Position numbers and translations under genes: made by a program. Shown piece after piece: positions 43,239 through 51,468 of a stretch of 64,000 bases of DNA; the first letter of the stretch is position 1, and every line of letters begins with the position of its first letter. This stretch comes from Leucothrix arctica (GTDB taxonomy: Bacteria > Pseudomonadota > Gammaproteobacteria > Thiotrichales > Thiotrichaceae). The stretch spans positions 346,001-410,000 of the forward strand of contig NZ_QGKL01000039.1 of NCBI RefSeq assembly GCF_003172895.1, read 5' to 3'. The notes beneath the pieces were generated by a model. It worked only from the letters and a program-made list of their open reading frames with translations. It made no database searches and was not told where the DNA came from.

Positions 43239-43270
43239 GCTTCTTCGTTAGATTTTTGTATATCCGTCCG

Positions 43271-43345
43271 TAAGGCATCGGGTACCTTCAACGGCTCCTC
43301 CTCCTTCGTCGGGAAGTCGCTCTTTTGAAAGTACCCGATGCCTTA
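43271..43345 (-). repeat. Hairpin element copy A with 33-nt conserved loop
   Basis: Arms 43271-43291 and 43325-43345 pair over 20 of 21 positions. The loop 43292-43324 is the exact reverse complement of the loop of copy B at 51416-51448. The stem sequences of the two copies are unrelated. It lies between the methyltransferase gene and vapB and forms the left border of the 8-kb island. Confidence 0.85.
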
Positions 43346-43450
43346 CTGCTACTTCCCTTCTGAGTTTCTTTAGGTAGCTTCTGCCTAATATCTTCATCGC
43401 TTGTTATTGTTTATAGTCTGGATAAGTCTTGCTACGGAGTACTTACTAAT

Positions 43451-43912: not shown

Positions 43913-44764
43913 GTGAAGAATAATCTTGGTATTCATGCCATTGCGGGCACAGAAAACTCACAGCGGAAGTTAGATGTACTCTTTATTCACGGCTTAGGTG
44001 GTGACGCTTTTACGACTTGGCAATATGAAAATAAAGCTGAGTACTTCTGGCCTAAAGGTTTGGTAGGCGATTTTCCAGAAGTAGGCGTTTGGACTATTGC
44101 TTACGGTGCGACACCTTCTCGTTGGGTAGAGGATGTTATGCCGATGGAAAGACGGGCTACAAATTTACTGAAGCAATTTGTCTTAAGTGGTATTGGGAAG
44201 AGACCTTTTACCTTTGTAGCACATAGTATGGGAGGTTTAATTGCGAAATACATACTGACTCAGGCTGAAATCAGTAATGATCCTGATTATCAAGAGGTAG
44301 CTGATAATTGTCGCGGTGTTATTTTTTTAGCTGTGCCACATGCAGGTTCAGGTGGGAGCAACGCACTAGGTTACGTGAATGTATTGGTTCGTGGTAATTA
44401 CATATTGAAGCAATTAGCAAAAGACTCAGCAGCACTTAATAATGTTGATAACCACTTTCGCCAACTGAGTAAGAGAAAGGGGTTGAGGAACTATGCTTTT
44501 ATTGAAACTAAAGAGGTTCGTATAAGAACCAAACTACTTTGTTTTTTCTCAATACCGAAAGGCATTAAAATAGTTAGCGAAACTAGTGCTAGTGCAACAG
44601 AGTTAGCAGAGCCTCCTGTTCCGATGGAGGACGACCATCTTTCTATTTGTAAGTTAGACTCAAAAGACAATTTGCTCTATCAAAGTGTGATAGACATCAT
44701 AAAAAAATACCTTGCTGTGCGCCCAAAAGAAGATCCCGAAAAAAAAAGGCTGAAGACGAAGTAA
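43913..44764 (+). CDS. Alpha/beta-hydrolase (lipase/esterase-like), candidate effector
   Basis: 283 residues from GTG 43913. Segments DVLFIHGLGGDAFTTWQ (oxyanion region), the nucleophile S105 in VAHSMGGLIAKYIL, VIFLAVPHAGSGGSN and the catalytic His in MEDDHLSICK are all present, so the triad looks intact. The C-terminus is short and charged. This hydrolase type often occurs as the effector in bacterial conflict systems. It starts an operon with the next genes. A strong AAAAGGAG (43846-43853) lies 60 bases upstream, before a TTG-initiated 20-codon frame that overlaps the GTG; coupling through that frame is possible. Confidence 0.8.
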   Translation: MKNNLGIHAIAGTENSQRKLDVLFIHGLGGDAFTTWQYENKAEYFWPKGLVGDFPEVGVWTIAYGATPSRWVEDVMPMERRATNLLKQFVLSGIGKRPFTFVAHSMGGLIAKYILTQAEISNDPDYQEVADNCRGVIFLAVPHAGSGGSNALGYVNVLVRGNYILKQLAKDSAALNNVDNHFRQLSKRKGLRNYAFIETKEVRIRTKLLCFFSIPKGIKIVSETSASATELAEPPVPMEDDHLSICKLDSKDNLLYQSVIDIIKKYLAVRPKEDPEKKRLKTK

Positions 44765-44793: not shown

Positions 44794-45468
44794 ATGGCTC
44801 ATGACTATCTCAGTAACCTATCTATGAAGAAGTGCTTTCAAAACCAAAACTACTTTGTTGGTTTCTACACAGGTGAACGAAATGACATCCCTTACAGTTT
44901 TGCCGTGGATTATTATACAAAGCTGAAAATACCGTTGCTGTCAGATGAGGTTTGGGAACAAATTTTGGAAATTGAGTTAGATGGTGCGGTAGAGGATAGT
45001 TTTCGTAATGGCCTTTATAAGAAACTCTTGCCGAAAGATTACTTAAAACTACAAAAAATTGATTTAGATGAGGTGGTTACTTCTAGGATGAAGGCTGACC
45101 GACAGCTTGTGATTTACGTTCAAATAGATAGAAACAGATCAGAGAAAACAGACATTATTATTAATGGTGCTATTACTTATCTTCAGAGTCTCAATATCCA
45201 AGATAGCCACTTTGCCGTTTTGTTTAATCGCAAAGAGGCTGTGGTAGCGCTTCCAAACTTCTGTAACGATATGGCTGGATTAAGAAAGCTAACTTCTGAA
45301 GATATTGAAGATTGGATGGAAGTGGTAGAAAAGAAAAAAGTAGACACATCAAGACTTGAACAAGCGCTTTCCCAGTTTAATGATAAGCAACAGTTCAGCT
45401 ACAAAGACGCGTTGAAACAACTAGAAACACTCCCACCAGCAGAAGTATTAAAAGGTAAATATTCATGA
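44794..45468 (+). CDS. Unknown operon partner of the MoxR/FGE system
   Basis: 224 residues; I do not recognise the family. It is a soluble alpha/beta protein (RQLVIYVQIDRNRS, HFAVLFNRKEAVVALP) with a charged helical C-terminal region. It lies 29 bases after the hydrolase gene and overlaps the MoxR gene by 4 bases (ATGA), so it belongs to the module. It may be an adaptor or an inactive NTPase-like partner. The start is uncertain because no ribosome site is seen. Confidence 0.6.
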   Translation: MAHDYLSNLSMKKCFQNQNYFVGFYTGERNDIPYSFAVDYYTKLKIPLLSDEVWEQILEIELDGAVEDSFRNGLYKKLLPKDYLKLQKIDLDEVVTSRMKADRQLVIYVQIDRNRSEKTDIIINGAITYLQSLNIQDSHFAVLFNRKEAVVALPNFCNDMAGLRKLTSEDIEDWMEVVEKKKVDTSRLEQALSQFNDKQQFSYKDALKQLETLPPAEVLKGKYS

Positions 45469-46505
45469 GTAAGCGCTTCTACAACGGTCAAGGCAAACGT
45501 AACTCCGAGCCGTTAATACTCCCCACAATTAATCACGATATTCAAACTACCCCAGAAGGTTACTTAGCCACAGCTGATCTAGCTGCGGCAGTGGACACAG
45601 CGCTCACGCTTGGGATGCCTTTATTACTGACAGGTGAGCCGGGCTCAGGTAAGTCAGCTCTGGCCAAAAGTATCGCCTGGGAAGTGTTAGGTGAAAACGA
45701 AAAGCCACTAGAGTTTACGGTAAAGTCAGATACACGTGCGACCGATTTGTTTTACCGTTTCGACACTGTTGGGCGTTTCCATGCGGCCAATGCGCCTGAT
45801 GGTGAGGTTTCTGCAAAGAACTTCTTACACTTCAATGCGATGGGTAGAGCGATCTTGCAAGCTAAGCCTTTTAAGTACACTCAAGACTTACTTCAAAGTG
45901 AGCAGCGCGCGCAACAAGTTCATACAGGTGAGCAGAAGCGCAGTGTGGTGTTAATTGATGAAATAGACAAAGCGCCACGCGATGTTCCCAATGACATGTT
46001 GGTAGAGCTAGAGCGACTTTGTTTTGATATTCATGAGTTACAAACCCTCGTTGAATTAGAAGGAGATGAGTGTAACCACCAGCCAATTATCATTATCACC
46101 AGCAACTCAGAAAAAGCGCTACCCGAAGCCTTTTTACGTCGCTGTGTATATCACCACCTAGAGTTCCCCGCGTTTGATGCGGAAGAGGGTAACACTGTCA
46201 CCGTAAGAGATATTGTGGATCGTCGTTTAGGCAACCGTTTTACATGGGAAGAAGGTTTACTCAAGGACGCGATTAGTTGGTTTAAGTTTTTGCGACAAGT
46301 GCGCGGTATAGAGAAAAAACCATCGATGGCTGAATTCCTAAGCTGGTTGGAATACCTGCAAGCTACAAACCCTCATGCAACGGAATTAAACCCTGACTCG
46401 GTACAGCTACAGCAAAGTATTTCCCACGTACTGTTAAAAAAGTCCCAAGACCAAGACCAAGCGCAATGTAAGCAGTGGTTGAGTCAGTGGAAAGCCGAAG
46501 ACTAA
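45465..46505 (+). CDS. MoxR-family AAA+ ATPase
   Basis: 346 residues. Walker A GEPGSGKSALAKSIAW, Walker B VVLIDEIDKAP, sensor 1 IIITSNSEK and the RRC-type arginine finger segment PEAFLRRCVYHHLEF are complete. MoxR ATPases assemble or activate von Willebrand A-like partners. It is followed after 3 bases by the large membrane protein with a vWA-like region, the expected client. Confidence 0.9.
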   Translation: MSKRFYNGQGKRNSEPLILPTINHDIQTTPEGYLATADLAAAVDTALTLGMPLLLTGEPGSGKSALAKSIAWEVLGENEKPLEFTVKSDTRATDLFYRFDTVGRFHAANAPDGEVSAKNFLHFNAMGRAILQAKPFKYTQDLLQSEQRAQQVHTGEQKRSVVLIDEIDKAPRDVPNDMLVELERLCFDIHELQTLVELEGDECNHQPIIIITSNSEKALPEAFLRRCVYHHLEFPAFDAEEGNTVTVRDIVDRRLGNRFTWEEGLLKDAISWFKFLRQVRGIEKKPSMAEFLSWLEYLQATNPHATELNPDSVQLQQSISHVLLKKSQDQDQAQCKQWLSQWKAED

Positions 46506-46508
46506 GCA

Positions 46509-49500
46509 ATGTCTGACGTTGATAAAACACCTTATGCTTGGTTGGAGAAACTACCCCAGCTAAATAGCCTGCTACTAGCGAACGGCATCACAGTGAATGC
46601 CGATGTATGGGTGCGTGTGTATGATTTATTCATCGCCCAATACCAGCAAAACCGTTTACCAGAAGACCCTGCGCGTTTAGAAAATGCCTTAAGCGGTTTA
46701 ATAGTGACTAGTGCTGAGCAGCAAAAGCAGTTTAAGGGACTATATCGACAATGGCTCAGCACGATTGGTTCAGCGGAAGCGGCCCAAGCTGATCAAGATA
46801 AAAAAAGCAGACAGGAAAAACAACAAGCTGAGTTTGAAAACAAAGAACAAGAGCAAAGGAAAAACCGTAGCGTAGTAAAAACCATTACCATAGCTTTATT
46901 GCTACTAGCCATTATCAGTATGGTAGTGGTCTACCTTTGGCCTGAAAAAGTGGTAGAGCCACCAATAGTTCCAACGCCAGTGGTATCAACAAGTATCGCA
47001 ACTACCACGACTACTAAACCTATAATGGCGCTTCAACCGACGCCACTAAGGCAAGACCTGCTGCCGAAAGCGCAGTCAGCGAGTCAAAATTTCGTGCTCG
47101 ACCTAATTGGCAAAGGCTTACCGTTTCTACCAATTAGCCTGTTTGGCTTTTTCCTATGGGCAAGGTGGCAACGCTGGCAAGAAGTGTTAAAACAGCAAAA
47201 AGGCGACCCTAAAGATCCTTTGAGTGTGATTAGCCTGTCGGATAAGGCCGAGTCGGCGGAAAGCTTGTTTAGTAGTCCGCTACTATCCAGTGCACTCAGA
47301 GCGTTGCACAATCCTATCAAAGTACTTAGCCAAACGCTGAGTATGCGGGAAACTGCGGAAGCAACCGCTAATGCAGCTGGTTATTTCACACCAAAGTATC
47401 AACAGCGCGCTTATATCCCACAGTGCATCATGATGATCAGCTATCAACACGGGCAAGACCAAGCCAGTGGTTTGGCCTTGCTGATGCAGCAACGCCTACT
47501 TCACGCAGGTTTAGAGGTTTACACCTACCTGTTTCAAGGTACACCTGAGCACCTGTATGCTTTAGAGGGTATGAAAGCGACTAGTCTTGCAGAAGTGACG
47601 ATGCGCTACCCGCAGGGTAATTTATTACTGATCTCTGACCCTGACATCTACTTGAGTGCATGGTCAGGCGAGCTACAGCCGTGGGCTAACGCGATTAGTC
47701 AGTGGCAACAACGCGCACTGCTGACAACACGCCCGACAACCGAAGCGATGCGTAAAGCGTTCGATGCGCTGCAACTGCATAGTGCTAGCCTAAGTAGCGA
47801 AGGGTTAAAGCAAATTAGCCAAACACTGGCAGGTGTGCGTAAAGCGAGTGAGGTAAATACTAGCCAACACCCATTGCCGCCAGAGCTGGCGCGTTTAACG
47901 ATTAATGAATGTGGCGAAGAGTTAAGCGAAGAAGAACAGCAAGAACAGATTGATGCACTGCATTTGTTCTGTGACCCGCAAACCTTCCGCTTGCTGACGG
48001 TTGTTGCAGCTTACCCTGAGTTGCACTGGCCGTTGACTCAACGAATAGAAAGTGAGCTATGCGCTGATCAGTCAATGGTGCAGCGTGAGCAACGCTTGCT
48101 TAACTTGCTGCGCTTGCCGTGGTTACGTGCAGGAAAAATACCTAAGTGGCTACGTTTATACTGTTACTACGAACAAAGCCTGAAACAACACCAAGAAACC
48201 CAAGCGCTATATCGGTCGCTGTTTCATCAGGCAGAAATAAAAGCCGAAGGTAATGATTCAAAGGATTATTTAGCGCTACCGTTTAACGCCAGTGCCGCGA
48301 AAAAGCCACATCAAGCTGCGTTTTTACGTTGGTTAAAAACACTTAACAAGGCGCAGGAAAGCACACTAGATGATAGCTTGTGGGAAGACCAAATATTTGT
48401 CGATACGCTCTGGGGTAAGCCAAAAGACCTAGATGTACCATTAACCAAGCGGCTAGCAGTCCGTTTGCCAAAAGGTCGCTGGGGGCGTTTATACCCTCGT
48501 ATCGCCTTATGGTCGACAGCTGCTTTATTGTTGGGTGTTATATTGCATCAAAGCTGGCAAAGTAAAGGGCGAGAGGAGTTTCAGGCGCTATTACCCCCTG
48601 CTGGATTGAGCGCAGGGCTTGCGAGTACTCCTATTGAAATCCTAATAAACAAACCTGAAAGCTACGAAACAGGTGCGCAACTAGTACAGTTTGAACAACA
48701 AAAACAAGCAGCGAAACTGTTGACGGAAGCCTTGAAGCAACAAGGTGTGACGGGTGAAATTAATACCAGCATAGCGATTGCTGCGACCAGTGATCAAGTG
48801 AGTCGTATTAGTTACAACACAACTCAACAAGAGCTTGCAGCGTTAGCGGCAAAGCAACTGGCCCATATCACTTGGGGTAATACATCAGAACTATCCGCTG
48901 CTAACACAAGTGATACCTTAAAAATTCAGCTCAATCGATTAATCCAAGAAGGGTCTACTTTTAGTGATCAAGCAAAGCCTTTAAGTAAGAGTGAAAAGGA
49001 GACTCAGTTAATACTCTTTAATAGTACCGATGTGACATTAACTGATATGAATAAATACATATTTGGTTCTAATGACACACCATTCACTGTGTTTAGTGAT
49101 GTCAGCAAAGACAATGTGCCACTACCGCAAATGGTCGCCTTACCCAGTGGGACTTTTCTGATGGGGTCACCAGAAAGTGAGCATGAATCTCCCCAGCATG
49201 ACGTAACCATAAGTGCTTTTGCCATGAGTCAAACTGAAATCACTTTCGAGCAATATGATGCTTTTGCCGATGCAACCAAACGCGAGAAGCCAAGTGATCA
49301 AGGCTGGGGAAGAGGACAGCGTCCTGTGATAAATGTGAGTTGGGATGATGCCAAAGCTTATACCGCATGGGTTAGTGAACAAACTGGACAAGTGTACCGT
49401 TTGCCGAGTGAGTCAGAATGGGAGTATGCCGCTCGTGCAGGCACACAAACGCAATTTTCCACGGGAGACTGTATTCATACTGACGTTGCTAATTACAATG

Positions 49501-49826
49501 ATAACTTTGAATACAATAACTGTGGTGCAAAAACAGATGTCTACCGTGAAAAAACAACGACAGTAAGCGAGCTAGCACCGAACTCTTGGGGGTTGTATGC
49601 CATGCACGGTAATGTTTGGGAGTGGGTGGAGGATTGTTACCAAGGTGGTTATGACGGCGCGCCTGATGATGGTTCAGCGAGGCAGGAGGCTGAGTGTGCT
49701 ATTCGAGTCTTGCGCGGCGGGGGGTGGAACCTCAATCATAACTACATCCGTTCTGCCTTCCGCTTCTGGAGCGATCCTGATGTTGCTATCAACCTTACGG
49801 GTTTTCGTATTGCCAGGGCGTTATGA
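46509..49826 (+). CDS. Membrane vWA-like/FGE (C-type lectin fold) protein, DGR target 1
   Basis: 1105 residues. After a soluble helical N-terminus there are transmembrane helices at about 126-145 and 200-220, then a Rossmann-like region (CIMMISYQHGQDQASGLALL to LLLISDPDIYL) that looks like a divergent vWA domain without MIDAS. A third helix at about 666-684 (IALWSTAALLLGVILHQSW) leads to a segment with a repeated domain and a terminal FGE/sulfatase-modifying domain from residue 875. The FGE part has MVALPSGTFLMGS, RLPSESEWEYAAR and VLRGGGW, but both catalytic cysteines of real formylglycine-generating enzymes are missing, so it is a binding domain. The last 23 residues are the hypervariable stretch VR1. 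Confidence 0.85.
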   Translation: MSDVDKTPYAWLEKLPQLNSLLLANGITVNADVWVRVYDLFIAQYQQNRLPEDPARLENALSGLIVTSAEQQKQFKGLYRQWLSTIGSAEAAQADQDKKSRQEKQQAEFENKEQEQRKNRSVVKTITIALLLLAIISMVVVYLWPEKVVEPPIVPTPVVSTSIATTTTTKPIMALQPTPLRQDLLPKAQSASQNFVLDLIGKGLPFLPISLFGFFLWARWQRWQEVLKQQKGDPKDPLSVISLSDKAESAESLFSSPLLSSALRALHNPIKVLSQTLSMRETAEATANAAGYFTPKYQQRAYIPQCIMMISYQHGQDQASGLALLMQQRLLHAGLEVYTYLFQGTPEHLYALEGMKATSLAEVTMRYPQGNLLLISDPDIYLSAWSGELQPWANAISQWQQRALLTTRPTTEAMRKAFDALQLHSASLSSEGLKQISQTLAGVRKASEVNTSQHPLPPELARLTINECGEELSEEEQQEQIDALHLFCDPQTFRLLTVVAAYPELHWPLTQRIESELCADQSMVQREQRLLNLLRLPWLRAGKIPKWLRLYCYYEQSLKQHQETQALYRSLFHQAEIKAEGNDSKDYLALPFNASAAKKPHQAAFLRWLKTLNKAQESTLDDSLWEDQIFVDTLWGKPKDLDVPLTKRLAVRLPKGRWGRLYPRIALWSTAALLLGVILHQSWQSKGREEFQALLPPAGLSAGLASTPIEILINKPESYETGAQLVQFEQQKQAAKLLTEALKQQGVTGEINTSIAIAATSDQVSRISYNTTQQELAALAAKQLAHITWGNTSELSAANTSDTLKIQLNRLIQEGSTFSDQAKPLSKSEKETQLILFNSTDVTLTDMNKYIFGSNDTPFTVFSDVSKDNVPLPQMVALPSGTFLMGSPESEHESPQHDVTISAFAMSQTEITFEQYDAFADATKREKPSDQGWGRGQRPVINVSWDDAKAYTAWVSEQTGQVYRLPSESEWEYAARAGTQTQFSTGDCIHTDVANYNDNFEYNNCGAKTDVYREKTTTVSELAPNSWGLYAMHGNVWEWVEDCYQGGYDGAPDDGSARQEAECAIRVLRGGGWNLNHNYIRSAFRFWSDPDVAINLTGFRIARAL
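49750..49816 (+). repeat. DGR variable repeat VR1
   Basis: 67 bases at the 3' end of the large gene. Against the template repeat it has 15 differences, 14 of them at positions where the template has A. The GGTTTTCGTATTGCCAG end is invariant. The identity with the second variable region continues about 40 bases past the stop, including a small hairpin AGGGCGTTATGACCCT at 49815-49830, the position of the initiation site in known retroelements. Confidence 0.87.
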
Positions 49827-49905
49827 CCCTTTGTTCTTTTGCCCTTTTGCACTTTGATTTTTCAGAGAGCTTCGGTTTTACGAAGGTGCTTGTTAGGAGC
49901 TGGTT

Positions 49906-50034
49906 ATGAATAAATTCCACCAATTACCACAGGTGATTCAAGATACTCATAAGGTCATTGAGTGGTTTATTCCCCAAATTGAAAAGCTGCCACGTAGTCG
50001 GAAGTTCTGCCAACCGCAACAGGAACAATCCTAA
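49906..50034 (+). pseudogene. avd: Avd-like accessory gene stump
   Basis: A 42-codon frame from ATG 49906, with AGGAG upstream. Residues 1-34 (LPQVIQDTHKVIEWFIPQIE, then KLPRSRKF) match the first helices of Avd, the four-helix accessory protein of diversity-generating retroelements. After that the frame runs into the template repeat and stops. A normal Avd has about 110 to 130 residues, so three quarters are lost. Confidence 0.75.
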
Positions 50035-50070
50035 TGAAGCAAACAACAACACGGGTTTTCGTATTGCCAG
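50004..50070 (+). repeat. DGR template repeat TR
   Basis: 67 bases that encode SSANRNRNNPNEANNNTGF in the target frame: many AAC/AAT codons, the usual template design that allows wide change at A. It differs from VR1 at 14 A and one C, and from VR2 only at A plus one inserted codon. It begins right at the Avd stump. About 205 bases of unassigned sequence lie between it and the second target; no reverse transcriptase is found. Confidence 0.87.
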
Positions 50071-50279
50071 TACGCCTAGCGTTTTGGGTTTTTAACAAAG
50101 CTCAAACGTGGCCAGAGTGGTTGACTCTTAGGAGCCAAACAGTGTGCCGCTGGGTGCCCATGAGGTGTTTTCCTGTGCAACAAAAGGAAGGTTGCCAAAG
50201 AAAGCGGCAAGGACTGCCACAAGTAGGGGTTAGTAGCCTATTGATTGGTTTTAGGCGAAACCCCTTGCTTGATTTTATG

Positions 50280-51218
50280 ATGTTTTCTCTGCTGTGCTTA
50301 TTTTTGACCCTTCCTCAAGCGAGTCACGCAGCCGTAGGTGATGAGCCTGTAACGCTTCCACCCAAGCCTTGCGTTAATACTTTGAATACGCTGCCAGAGA
50401 TGCAGTTAATCCCAGCAGGTCAATTTCAAATGGGTTCACCTGAGACAGAAGAAGGTCGTAGTAATGATGAAGGCCCAGTTCATGCAGTCAGTGTTTATCG
50501 CCCCTTTGCCTTATCACGTTGTGAGATTACCGTAGGTCAGTTTAAGCGCTTTGTGAATGATACAGGCTACAAGACAGATGCAGAGCGTGGTGACGGGTGC
50601 TTTGTTTTAAATGAAAAAGGAGATAGTGGAGAGAAGCAAAAAACGGCTAACTGGCGTTTACCTAATTTCACACAAACAGATGATCACCCTGTTGTTTGTG
50701 TTTCTTGGCAAGATGCTAAGGCTTATACACGTTGGTTGTCATCGGTAACGGGTGCGGTGTATCGTCTACCCACAGAAGCAGAGTGGGAATATGCCGCTAG
50801 AACAACTACGGCAAGTGAGCTAAGTCGCTATTGGGGTGATGAACCTAATGGCTGCGCTTATGCTAATGGTGCAGATCAAGCTTTAAAAGAAGTGGTTTCT
50901 TCCGTTACTACTATAGCTGATTGTAATGACGGGGCTGTTTTTACACAGCTAGCTGGGAGTTACCAGCGTAATGCGTTTGGTTTATCGGATATGCTAGGTA
51001 ATGCATTGGAATGGGTTGAGGACTGCTACAAAGATAATTATGAAGGGGTAGCGATAGATGGTTCAGCAAAGCAAGAAGCTGAGTGTGCTCGTCGAGTGTT
51101 GCGCGGCGGGGGCTGGAACGACGAACCAGACCTCATCCGTTCTGCCAACCGCAACAGGTACGATCCTTATGTTGCAAACATCTACTTCACGGGTTTTCGT
51201 ATTGCCAGGGCGTTATGA
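50280..51218 (+). CDS. Secreted FGE/C-type-lectin-fold protein, DGR target 2
   Basis: 312 residues from ATG 50280 (or 50277). A signal peptide MFSLLCLFLTLPQASHA is followed directly by the FGE fold: LIPAGQFQMGSPETEEGRSN, RPFALSRCEITVGQFKRFV, VCVSWQDAKAYTRWLS, RLPTEAEWEYAAR and VLRGGGWNDEP. The catalytic cysteines of true enzymes are absent. The open frame extends to 50034, but that start lies inside the template repeat and the extra residues look unreal. The end is VR2. It is likely exported and acts as a variable ligand binder. Confidence 0.85.
   Translation: MFSLLCLFLTLPQASHAAVGDEPVTLPPKPCVNTLNTLPEMQLIPAGQFQMGSPETEEGRSNDEGPVHAVSVYRPFALSRCEITVGQFKRFVNDTGYKTDAERGDGCFVLNEKGDSGEKQKTANWRLPNFTQTDDHPVVCVSWQDAKAYTRWLSSVTGAVYRLPTEAEWEYAARTTTASELSRYWGDEPNGCAYANGADQALKEVVSSVTTIADCNDGAVFTQLAGSYQRNAFGLSDMLGNALEWVEDCYKDNYEGVAIDGSAKQEAECARRVLRGGGWNDEPDLIRSANRNRYDPYVANIYFTGFRIARAL
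51139..51208 (+). repeat. DGR variable repeat VR2
   Basis: 70 bases, one codon longer than the template. All substitutions against the template fall at A, giving Tyr, Asp, Tyr, Val, Ile and Phe where the template has Asn or Glu. The flanking 3' sequence is nearly identical to that of VR1. Confidence 0.85.
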
Positions 51219-51395: not shown

Positions 51396-51468
51396 GAGGC
51401 CATTCATAGTTTCGTAAGAGCGACTTCCCGACGAAGGAGGAGGAGCCGTCGAAACTATGGATCGCCTC
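51396..51468 (+). repeat. Hairpin element copy B with 33-nt conserved loop
   Basis: Arms 51396-51414 and 51450-51468 pair at 18 of 19 positions (one G-T). The loop contains the 33-nt core 51416-51448, the exact reverse complement of the core of copy A. Its stem has no likeness to that of copy A. It stands between convergent target 2 and ftsY and forms the right border of the island. Confidence 0.85.

Follow-up and report, generated by a model that had tools for sequence, protein, structure and literature searches.

The window analysed here is a 64,000-nt stretch of Leucothrix arctica (assembly GCF_003172895.1, contig NZ_QGKL01000039.1, positions 346,001 to 410,000), and it harbors an island of genes, all on the forward strand, that most probably contains the remnant of a diversity-generating retroelement (DGR) whose reverse transcriptase (RT) has been lost. 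Two of the genes encode proteins with an FGE/C-type-lectin domain, namely target 1 (46509..49826; 1105 aa; PF03781 at residues 872-1103, 1.1e-55) and the short target 2 (50279..51218; PF03781 5.6e-64), which has a hydrophobic, signal-like start. Repeat alignment placed a variable repeat (VR) in each, VR1 at 49750..49816 (the part matched by the remaining template) and VR2, with one inserted codon, at 51139..51208. Between the two targets lie a stub of the accessory gene avd (49906..50007; first 34 codons), which runs into a 5'-truncated template repeat (TR; 50004..50070), and a spacer 3' of the TR (50071..50278) with a predicted RNA fold (z -2.55, matched or exceeded in stability by 3 of 200 shuffles); Rfam gave no match. 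Directly upstream of target 1, 4 nt before its start, is a gene for an AAA ATPase (45465..46505; AAA_5 2.1e-10, AAA 6.2e-10), here called MoxR-like after PMC10907252. It is preceded by genes encoding a 224-aa protein without a Pfam or PADLOC family (44794..45468) and an alpha/beta hydrolase (DUF676; 43913..44764; PF05057 6.4e-8, over the cut-off), a predicted effector that matched the PADLOC models DUF626_VIII (7.2e-21; the retron VIII effector model) and LmuA (1.5e-9).

The first-pass annotation of this DNA had proposed one template and two variable repeats with changes confined almost entirely to adenines, and all three repeats, as well as its counts, were recovered. Of the 67 bases, 15 differed between VR1 and the TR, and 14 of these are A in the template (A>T 10, A>G 3, A>C 1; the remaining change was C>T), and since A accounts for 23 of the 67 template bases, such a bias has a hypergeometric P of 1.1e-7. 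VR2 differed at seven bases, all of them A (A>T 6, A>G 1), in addition to the inserted codon; its P of 2.8e-4, calculated with a 3-base gap, is somewhat optimistic because the gap position was chosen as the best among 68 (three tie). Both target frames are open and have a common TGFRIARAL end. Read in the frame of the targets, the template gives SANRNRNNPNEANNNTGFRIA, VR1 gives SAFRFWSDPDVAINLTGFRIA, and VR2 gives SANRNRYDPYVANIYFTGFRIA. The extra VR2 codon sits within a run of AAC codons and resembles a changed AAC, as copying slippage would give; among 12 aligned target 2 homologues, only P0023 had a residue at this position. The identity of TR and VRs has a defined, shared 3' end, stopping after CCAG, where TACGCC follows the template and GGCGTT follows in both targets, a split that we take to correspond to IMH* (TR) and IMH (VR), the initiation of mutagenic homing sites of known DGRs. 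After the VR, the two targets share about 46 bases and are 91% identical over 75 nt in all, and they are also paralogous outside the VR (74% over 190 nt). No other good match to 49740-50350 besides VR2 was detected in the window's own assembly.

The homologues of the targets carry the same signature. A codon was counted as a template-A codon if it had A at template position 1 or 2. In target 1 (homologues P0002-P0009), five of the six aligned homologues were compared with the window, P0007 being left out as it has no FGE end; template-A codons matched in 15 of 60 cells and the remaining template codons in 41 of 45, as against 726 of 966 in the FGE domain outside the VR. In target 2, seven of the 12 aligned homologues were compared (the five least similar were left out), and matches were found in 24 of 84 cells for template-A codons, 63 of 63 for the other template codons, and 1315 of 1645 for the FGE domain outside the VR. 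In these relatives, template-A codons are thus hypervariable and their neighbour codons conserved.

Both targets are of the C-type-lectin type with the VR at the C-terminal end. The fold that had been proposed for them was borne out, as PF03781 extends to the C-terminus in both and target 2 matched PvdO (5hha, 9.4e-47), FGE (2q17, 1.7e-24), and a Treponema variable protein (2y3c, 3.3e-6) in PDB. The proposed lack of the catalytic cysteines was supported insofar as neither VR tail contains a cysteine; the catalytic cysteines of FGE presumably lie in the stretch corresponding to these tails, and with their position taken so, the targets share the FGE/PvdO fold but are not expected to be FGE enzymes. 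The N-terminal part of target 1 had no Pfam family over its cut-off, and its AlphaFold2 model was of low confidence (mean predicted local distance difference test score 52.5; predicted template modelling score 0.26). A hydropathy count gave two membrane helices in target 1, whereas the homologous protein of L079 (see below) and P0006 have a third at about residue 200; the lectin domain would lie outside the cell with three helices and in the cytoplasm with two. The start of target 2 is uncertain, given that its open frame (394 codons) begins at 50034, within the template. The ATG at 50034 opens a frame that stays open across the spacer (50034-50279) into target 2.

The start codon at 49906, between target 1 and the template, opens 34 codons, MNKFHQLPQVIQDTHKVIEWFIPQIEKLPRSRKF, whose frame passes straight into the template and then stops. 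This translation showed 79% identity to the N-terminal end of P0023, 44% to P0025 bAvd, and 50% over 26 residues to the avd product beside a NACHT/FGE-like gene in L018, which belongs to PF22296, the family of the full-length relatives and the fitting profile for these proteins; alone, the stub had no match in PHROGs, Pfam, or PDB. Judged by these alignments, the 34-codon frame is the start of avd, of which the locus retains these first codons only. Elsewhere in the assembly, a PF22296 search found no bAvd at E <= 1, a search blind to the stub itself, so that other avd fragments could escape it, and a PF05635 search, using a poor model for these proteins, found no accessory gene.

What has been lost is indicated by an intact relative. 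Target 1 was confined to the window's own genome among 63 genomes of the family (the search of the order covered the same 63), and relatives were found in four further genomes among 369 of the class, which were drawn evenly from a larger group; none was confirmed in genome_contigs or viral_contigs. One of the four, locus L079 of G383 (same class, other family), encodes on one strand a TIR protein, MoxR-like ATPase, target 1 (1036 aa), bAvd, RT (motifs PLGNLTSQ and YVDD), template, spacer, and target 2. Its 117-nt template overlaps the end of the RT frame, and all changes in its VRs lie at A (10 of 10 in VR1, 14 of 14 in VR2). The window resembles L079 in its MoxR-like ATPase (43% identity over 345 aa), both targets, gene order, and the template 3' end (79% identity over 70 nt, including the TACGC downstream). 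It differs in lacking the full bAvd and the RT, in its shorter template, and in having a hydrolase in place of the TIR protein; outside the FGE domain, the two target 1 proteins are only about 24-27% identical, and there was no support for the 224-aa and TIR proteins being homologous (E 0.18). Relative to L079, the window is missing a single contiguous segment of about 1.4 kb, which by coordinate subtraction measures 1389 bp in L079. This segment spans avd from codon 35 onward, the RT gene, and the initial 50 nt of the template, the first remaining TR base corresponding to position 51 of the L079 template. Both avd sequences encode phenylalanine at residue 34, and GTTC (about 4 bases) at the joint fits both sides, leaving the exact break uncertain by a few bases. 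A single deletion would thus account at once for the stub, the missing RT, and the shortened template. Given the length of the L079 template, the window repeats were likely once about 50 bases longer on the 5' side, and, judged by the 117-nt VR of L079, VR1 likely reaches back to about 49700.

A whole-genome search for a DGR RT, which the first-pass annotation had suggested as a check, returned none. The assembly is a draft of 4.75 Mb in 44 contigs and 99.58% complete, and the RVT_1 profile hit only two places in it, L001 (G000:C37) and L002 (G000:C16), both retron-type RTs whose best matches were retron models (PADLOC types XIII and III-A), with the motif LPQGAPTSP, in contrast to PIGNLTSQ and PLGNLTSQ in the DGR RTs of L061 (a locus of G002, same genus) and L079. 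Since the RTs of Bordetella phage BPP-1, L061, and L079 all pass RVT_1, a DGR RT in the assembly should have been detected. The cognate RT of L079 found in this genome, as its best match, one retron RT at E 0.015 (itself 7e-237 and G002 1e-75 as controls), while the G002 RT had no match at E <= 10 (with itself as control). The BPP-1 RT, run without a positive control, also found nothing. The locus is therefore not a complete DGR, and past activity is the better reading of the DGR signature that had been proposed, which the A-limited changes, the FGE targets, and the intact homologous cassette uphold.

Further breaks of this cassette were found among relatives of target 2. From 7959 hits, the best 120 were taken, the window's own included, and the other 119 were scanned with template and avd motifs made from the window, P0025, and P0117. 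Nineteen contained a template-like stretch followed in each case by target 2, so TR, spacer, and target 2 stand in an old order; 17 of these open reading frames (ORFs) start in the template at the same place as the window frame at 50034, and two, P0025 and P0117, read through it. The avd start was present in three listed ORFs. P0025 reads bAvd, about 90 RT residues (51% identity to the G002 RT over 81 residues), template, and target 2; P0117 reads bAvd to about residue 88, template, and target 2; and P0023 reads avd to codon 33 and then the target 2 leader. All three are public, mostly metagenomic sequences known as ORFs alone, and the search favours in-frame fusions. The breaks in P0025 and P0117, which differ from that of the window, are likely separate losses, whereas the break in P0023, within one codon of the window's, may reflect a related loss.

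Taken together, we consider it probable (about 0.8) that the locus is a DGR remnant that lost its RT by a deletion of about 1.4 kb from avd codon 34 through the RT into the template, and that the predicted receptor pair is likely frozen. Before the deletion, the RT would have introduced errors at A while copying the template RNA, and the resulting complementary DNA (cDNA) would then have rewritten both target genes at their ends. Target 1 is predicted to be a membrane-anchored receptor that would signal through the MoxR-like ATPase to the hydrolase as effector, with target 2 as a putative exported lectin. The single deletion would have switched off the mutator, and the last two variants would since have been retained by ordinary selection or drift.

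This kind of locus is already known from Dore et al. 2024 (PMC10907252), who proposed that the targets are antigen sensors signalling via a MoxR ATPase and who reported degenerate DGR loci without RT or template. The window likely holds a receptor pair of this kind, coupled to MoxR and diversified by a DGR, that is now likely frozen. The gene arrangement of the locus is closest to the MoxR-associated clade 5 DGR loci of multicellular bacteria, which are ternary-type conflict systems, above all to clade 5A (DGR 8), with one long (1105 aa) and one short C-type-lectin target; the upstream gene here, by contrast, encodes a hydrolase. Neither a vWA nor a VMAP family, as in the classical VMAP ternary system, was found among Pfam matches at E <= 0.05 in the six proteins scanned. 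RT or template is likewise missing from degenerate loci of Thiohalocapsa sp. PB-PSB1, which include RT-deleted variants; RT loss there is tied to arrays resembling miniature inverted-repeat transposable elements (MITEs), to transposons, or to deletions, in a genome that has other, complete DGRs (PMC10907252). In the window, by contrast, one likely deletion joins the avd stub to what is left of the template, and the assembly yielded no other DGR. The BPP-1 DGR shares the order of target with VR, avd, and TR as well as the accessory Pfam family, but it is complete and phage-borne, with one target and the RT after the TR. A literature search found no paper linking Leucothrix or Thiotrichales to DGRs, and one on remnants gave no DGR title among the matches listed.

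Several observations weigh against loss of function by deletion. The template and the VRs show only one non-A difference, which would mean that the deletion is recent or that the template remains in use. Diversification in trans has been reported, as has the coexistence of RT-deleted with intact variants (PMC10907252), and use of the template in trans would be compatible with the sequence: 8 bp remain before its first A, a length of identity reported to suffice for completing homing in BPP-1, and the roughly 46 bases common to both targets after the VR exceed the up to 35 bp that a target needs there (PMC3240598). The assembly is a draft, so an RT could sit on missing DNA, and an avd fragment could have escaped the profile. 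The evidence comes from one genome; avd and RT were shown by L079 only, of the four class genomes with a target 1 relative (the stretches taken from L080, L081, and L082 had no tblastn match to either at 1e-3); and the similarity of the window and L079 spacers was not significant (59 of 500 shuffles as high). The targets might accordingly still be diversified by RT and Avd supplied in trans, from unassembled DNA, or by intact copies of the locus in other cells of the population, as reported for loci of PB-PSB1. This we regard as unlikely, as neither a DGR RT nor bAvd nor another matching template was found in an assembly of such completeness, and the 5' part of the template is gone.

Loss by deletion could also be only apparent, the true locus holding a whole avd-RT-TR cassette that was misassembled, for three similar repeats inside 1.5 kb can confuse an assembly. 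Stub and template, however, share only the GTTC at their joint, so no repeat bridges it; the RT was found on no other contig, and fusions of avd to template or target recur in three public ORFs of relatives, which makes such an error very improbable. Simple paralogue divergence between the two FGE genes, with a third copy by chance, would fit their paralogy outside the VR, and half of what the first-pass annotation had named as its mark applies here, in that no DGR RT was found in the assembly; yet the A bias in both VRs and the intact homologous cassette of the same order and template 3' end argue for a DGR so strongly that we give this explanation next to no credence.

If the locus is indeed a DGR remnant, the likely post-mutator receptor pair and its intact relative would offer a view of which variants persist once diversification stops. 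Template and target pairs can outlive the RT, and RT-based surveys would miss such loci; the order avd, RT, TR, spacer, and second target could be used to seek more of them. A more speculative possibility, which we hold to be unlikely, is lock-in by self-deletion, whereby cassettes would repeatedly lose avd and RT by breaks in the template or at the short target, and the template would act as a recombinogenic end that turns off the mutator and fixes the receptor pair. On this view the process would be captured at one moment each in the window, P0023, P0025, and P0117; the switch-off would then perhaps be caused by the cassette's own cDNA.

The island is flanked by a methyltransferase gene and ftsY, and in G001, G002, and G003, three of six other genomes of the genus, these neighbours are separated by about 60 bp, 4.6 kb, and 0.7 kb, respectively. 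None of the six island proteins had a match at this site in the three genomes at E <= 1e-5, and the 4.6-kb gap of G002 contains other genes; the island is thus absent from this site in these three sister species, and acquisition is the simpler reading. The GC content of the island (44.6%) against its flanks (45.0-45.1%) gives no sign of foreign origin.

Inverted hairpins flank the island at 43270-43346 and 51396-51468. They have an identical 33-nt core (43292-43324 and 51416-51448) and arms that are unlike each other but self-complementary; no further copy of the core was found in the window at up to 3 mismatches, and the ftsY locus of G006 (L024) carries one that differs by 3 mismatches and has arms of its own. 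The flanking hairpin looks like a dispersed MITE-like element. Elsewhere in the genus, L061 (4433-12139) is a different DGR-like locus with an RT and bAvd, and its targets are two TIR or SEFIR/NACHT/FGE proteins. The avd pattern was found in two acidobacterial stretches only in genome_contigs and in none of the viral_contigs. In L018 (69-2997), from an acidobacterial metagenome-assembled genome, an intact bAvd lies downstream of a gene that has an FGE-like end, and this stretch is likely a DGR locus.
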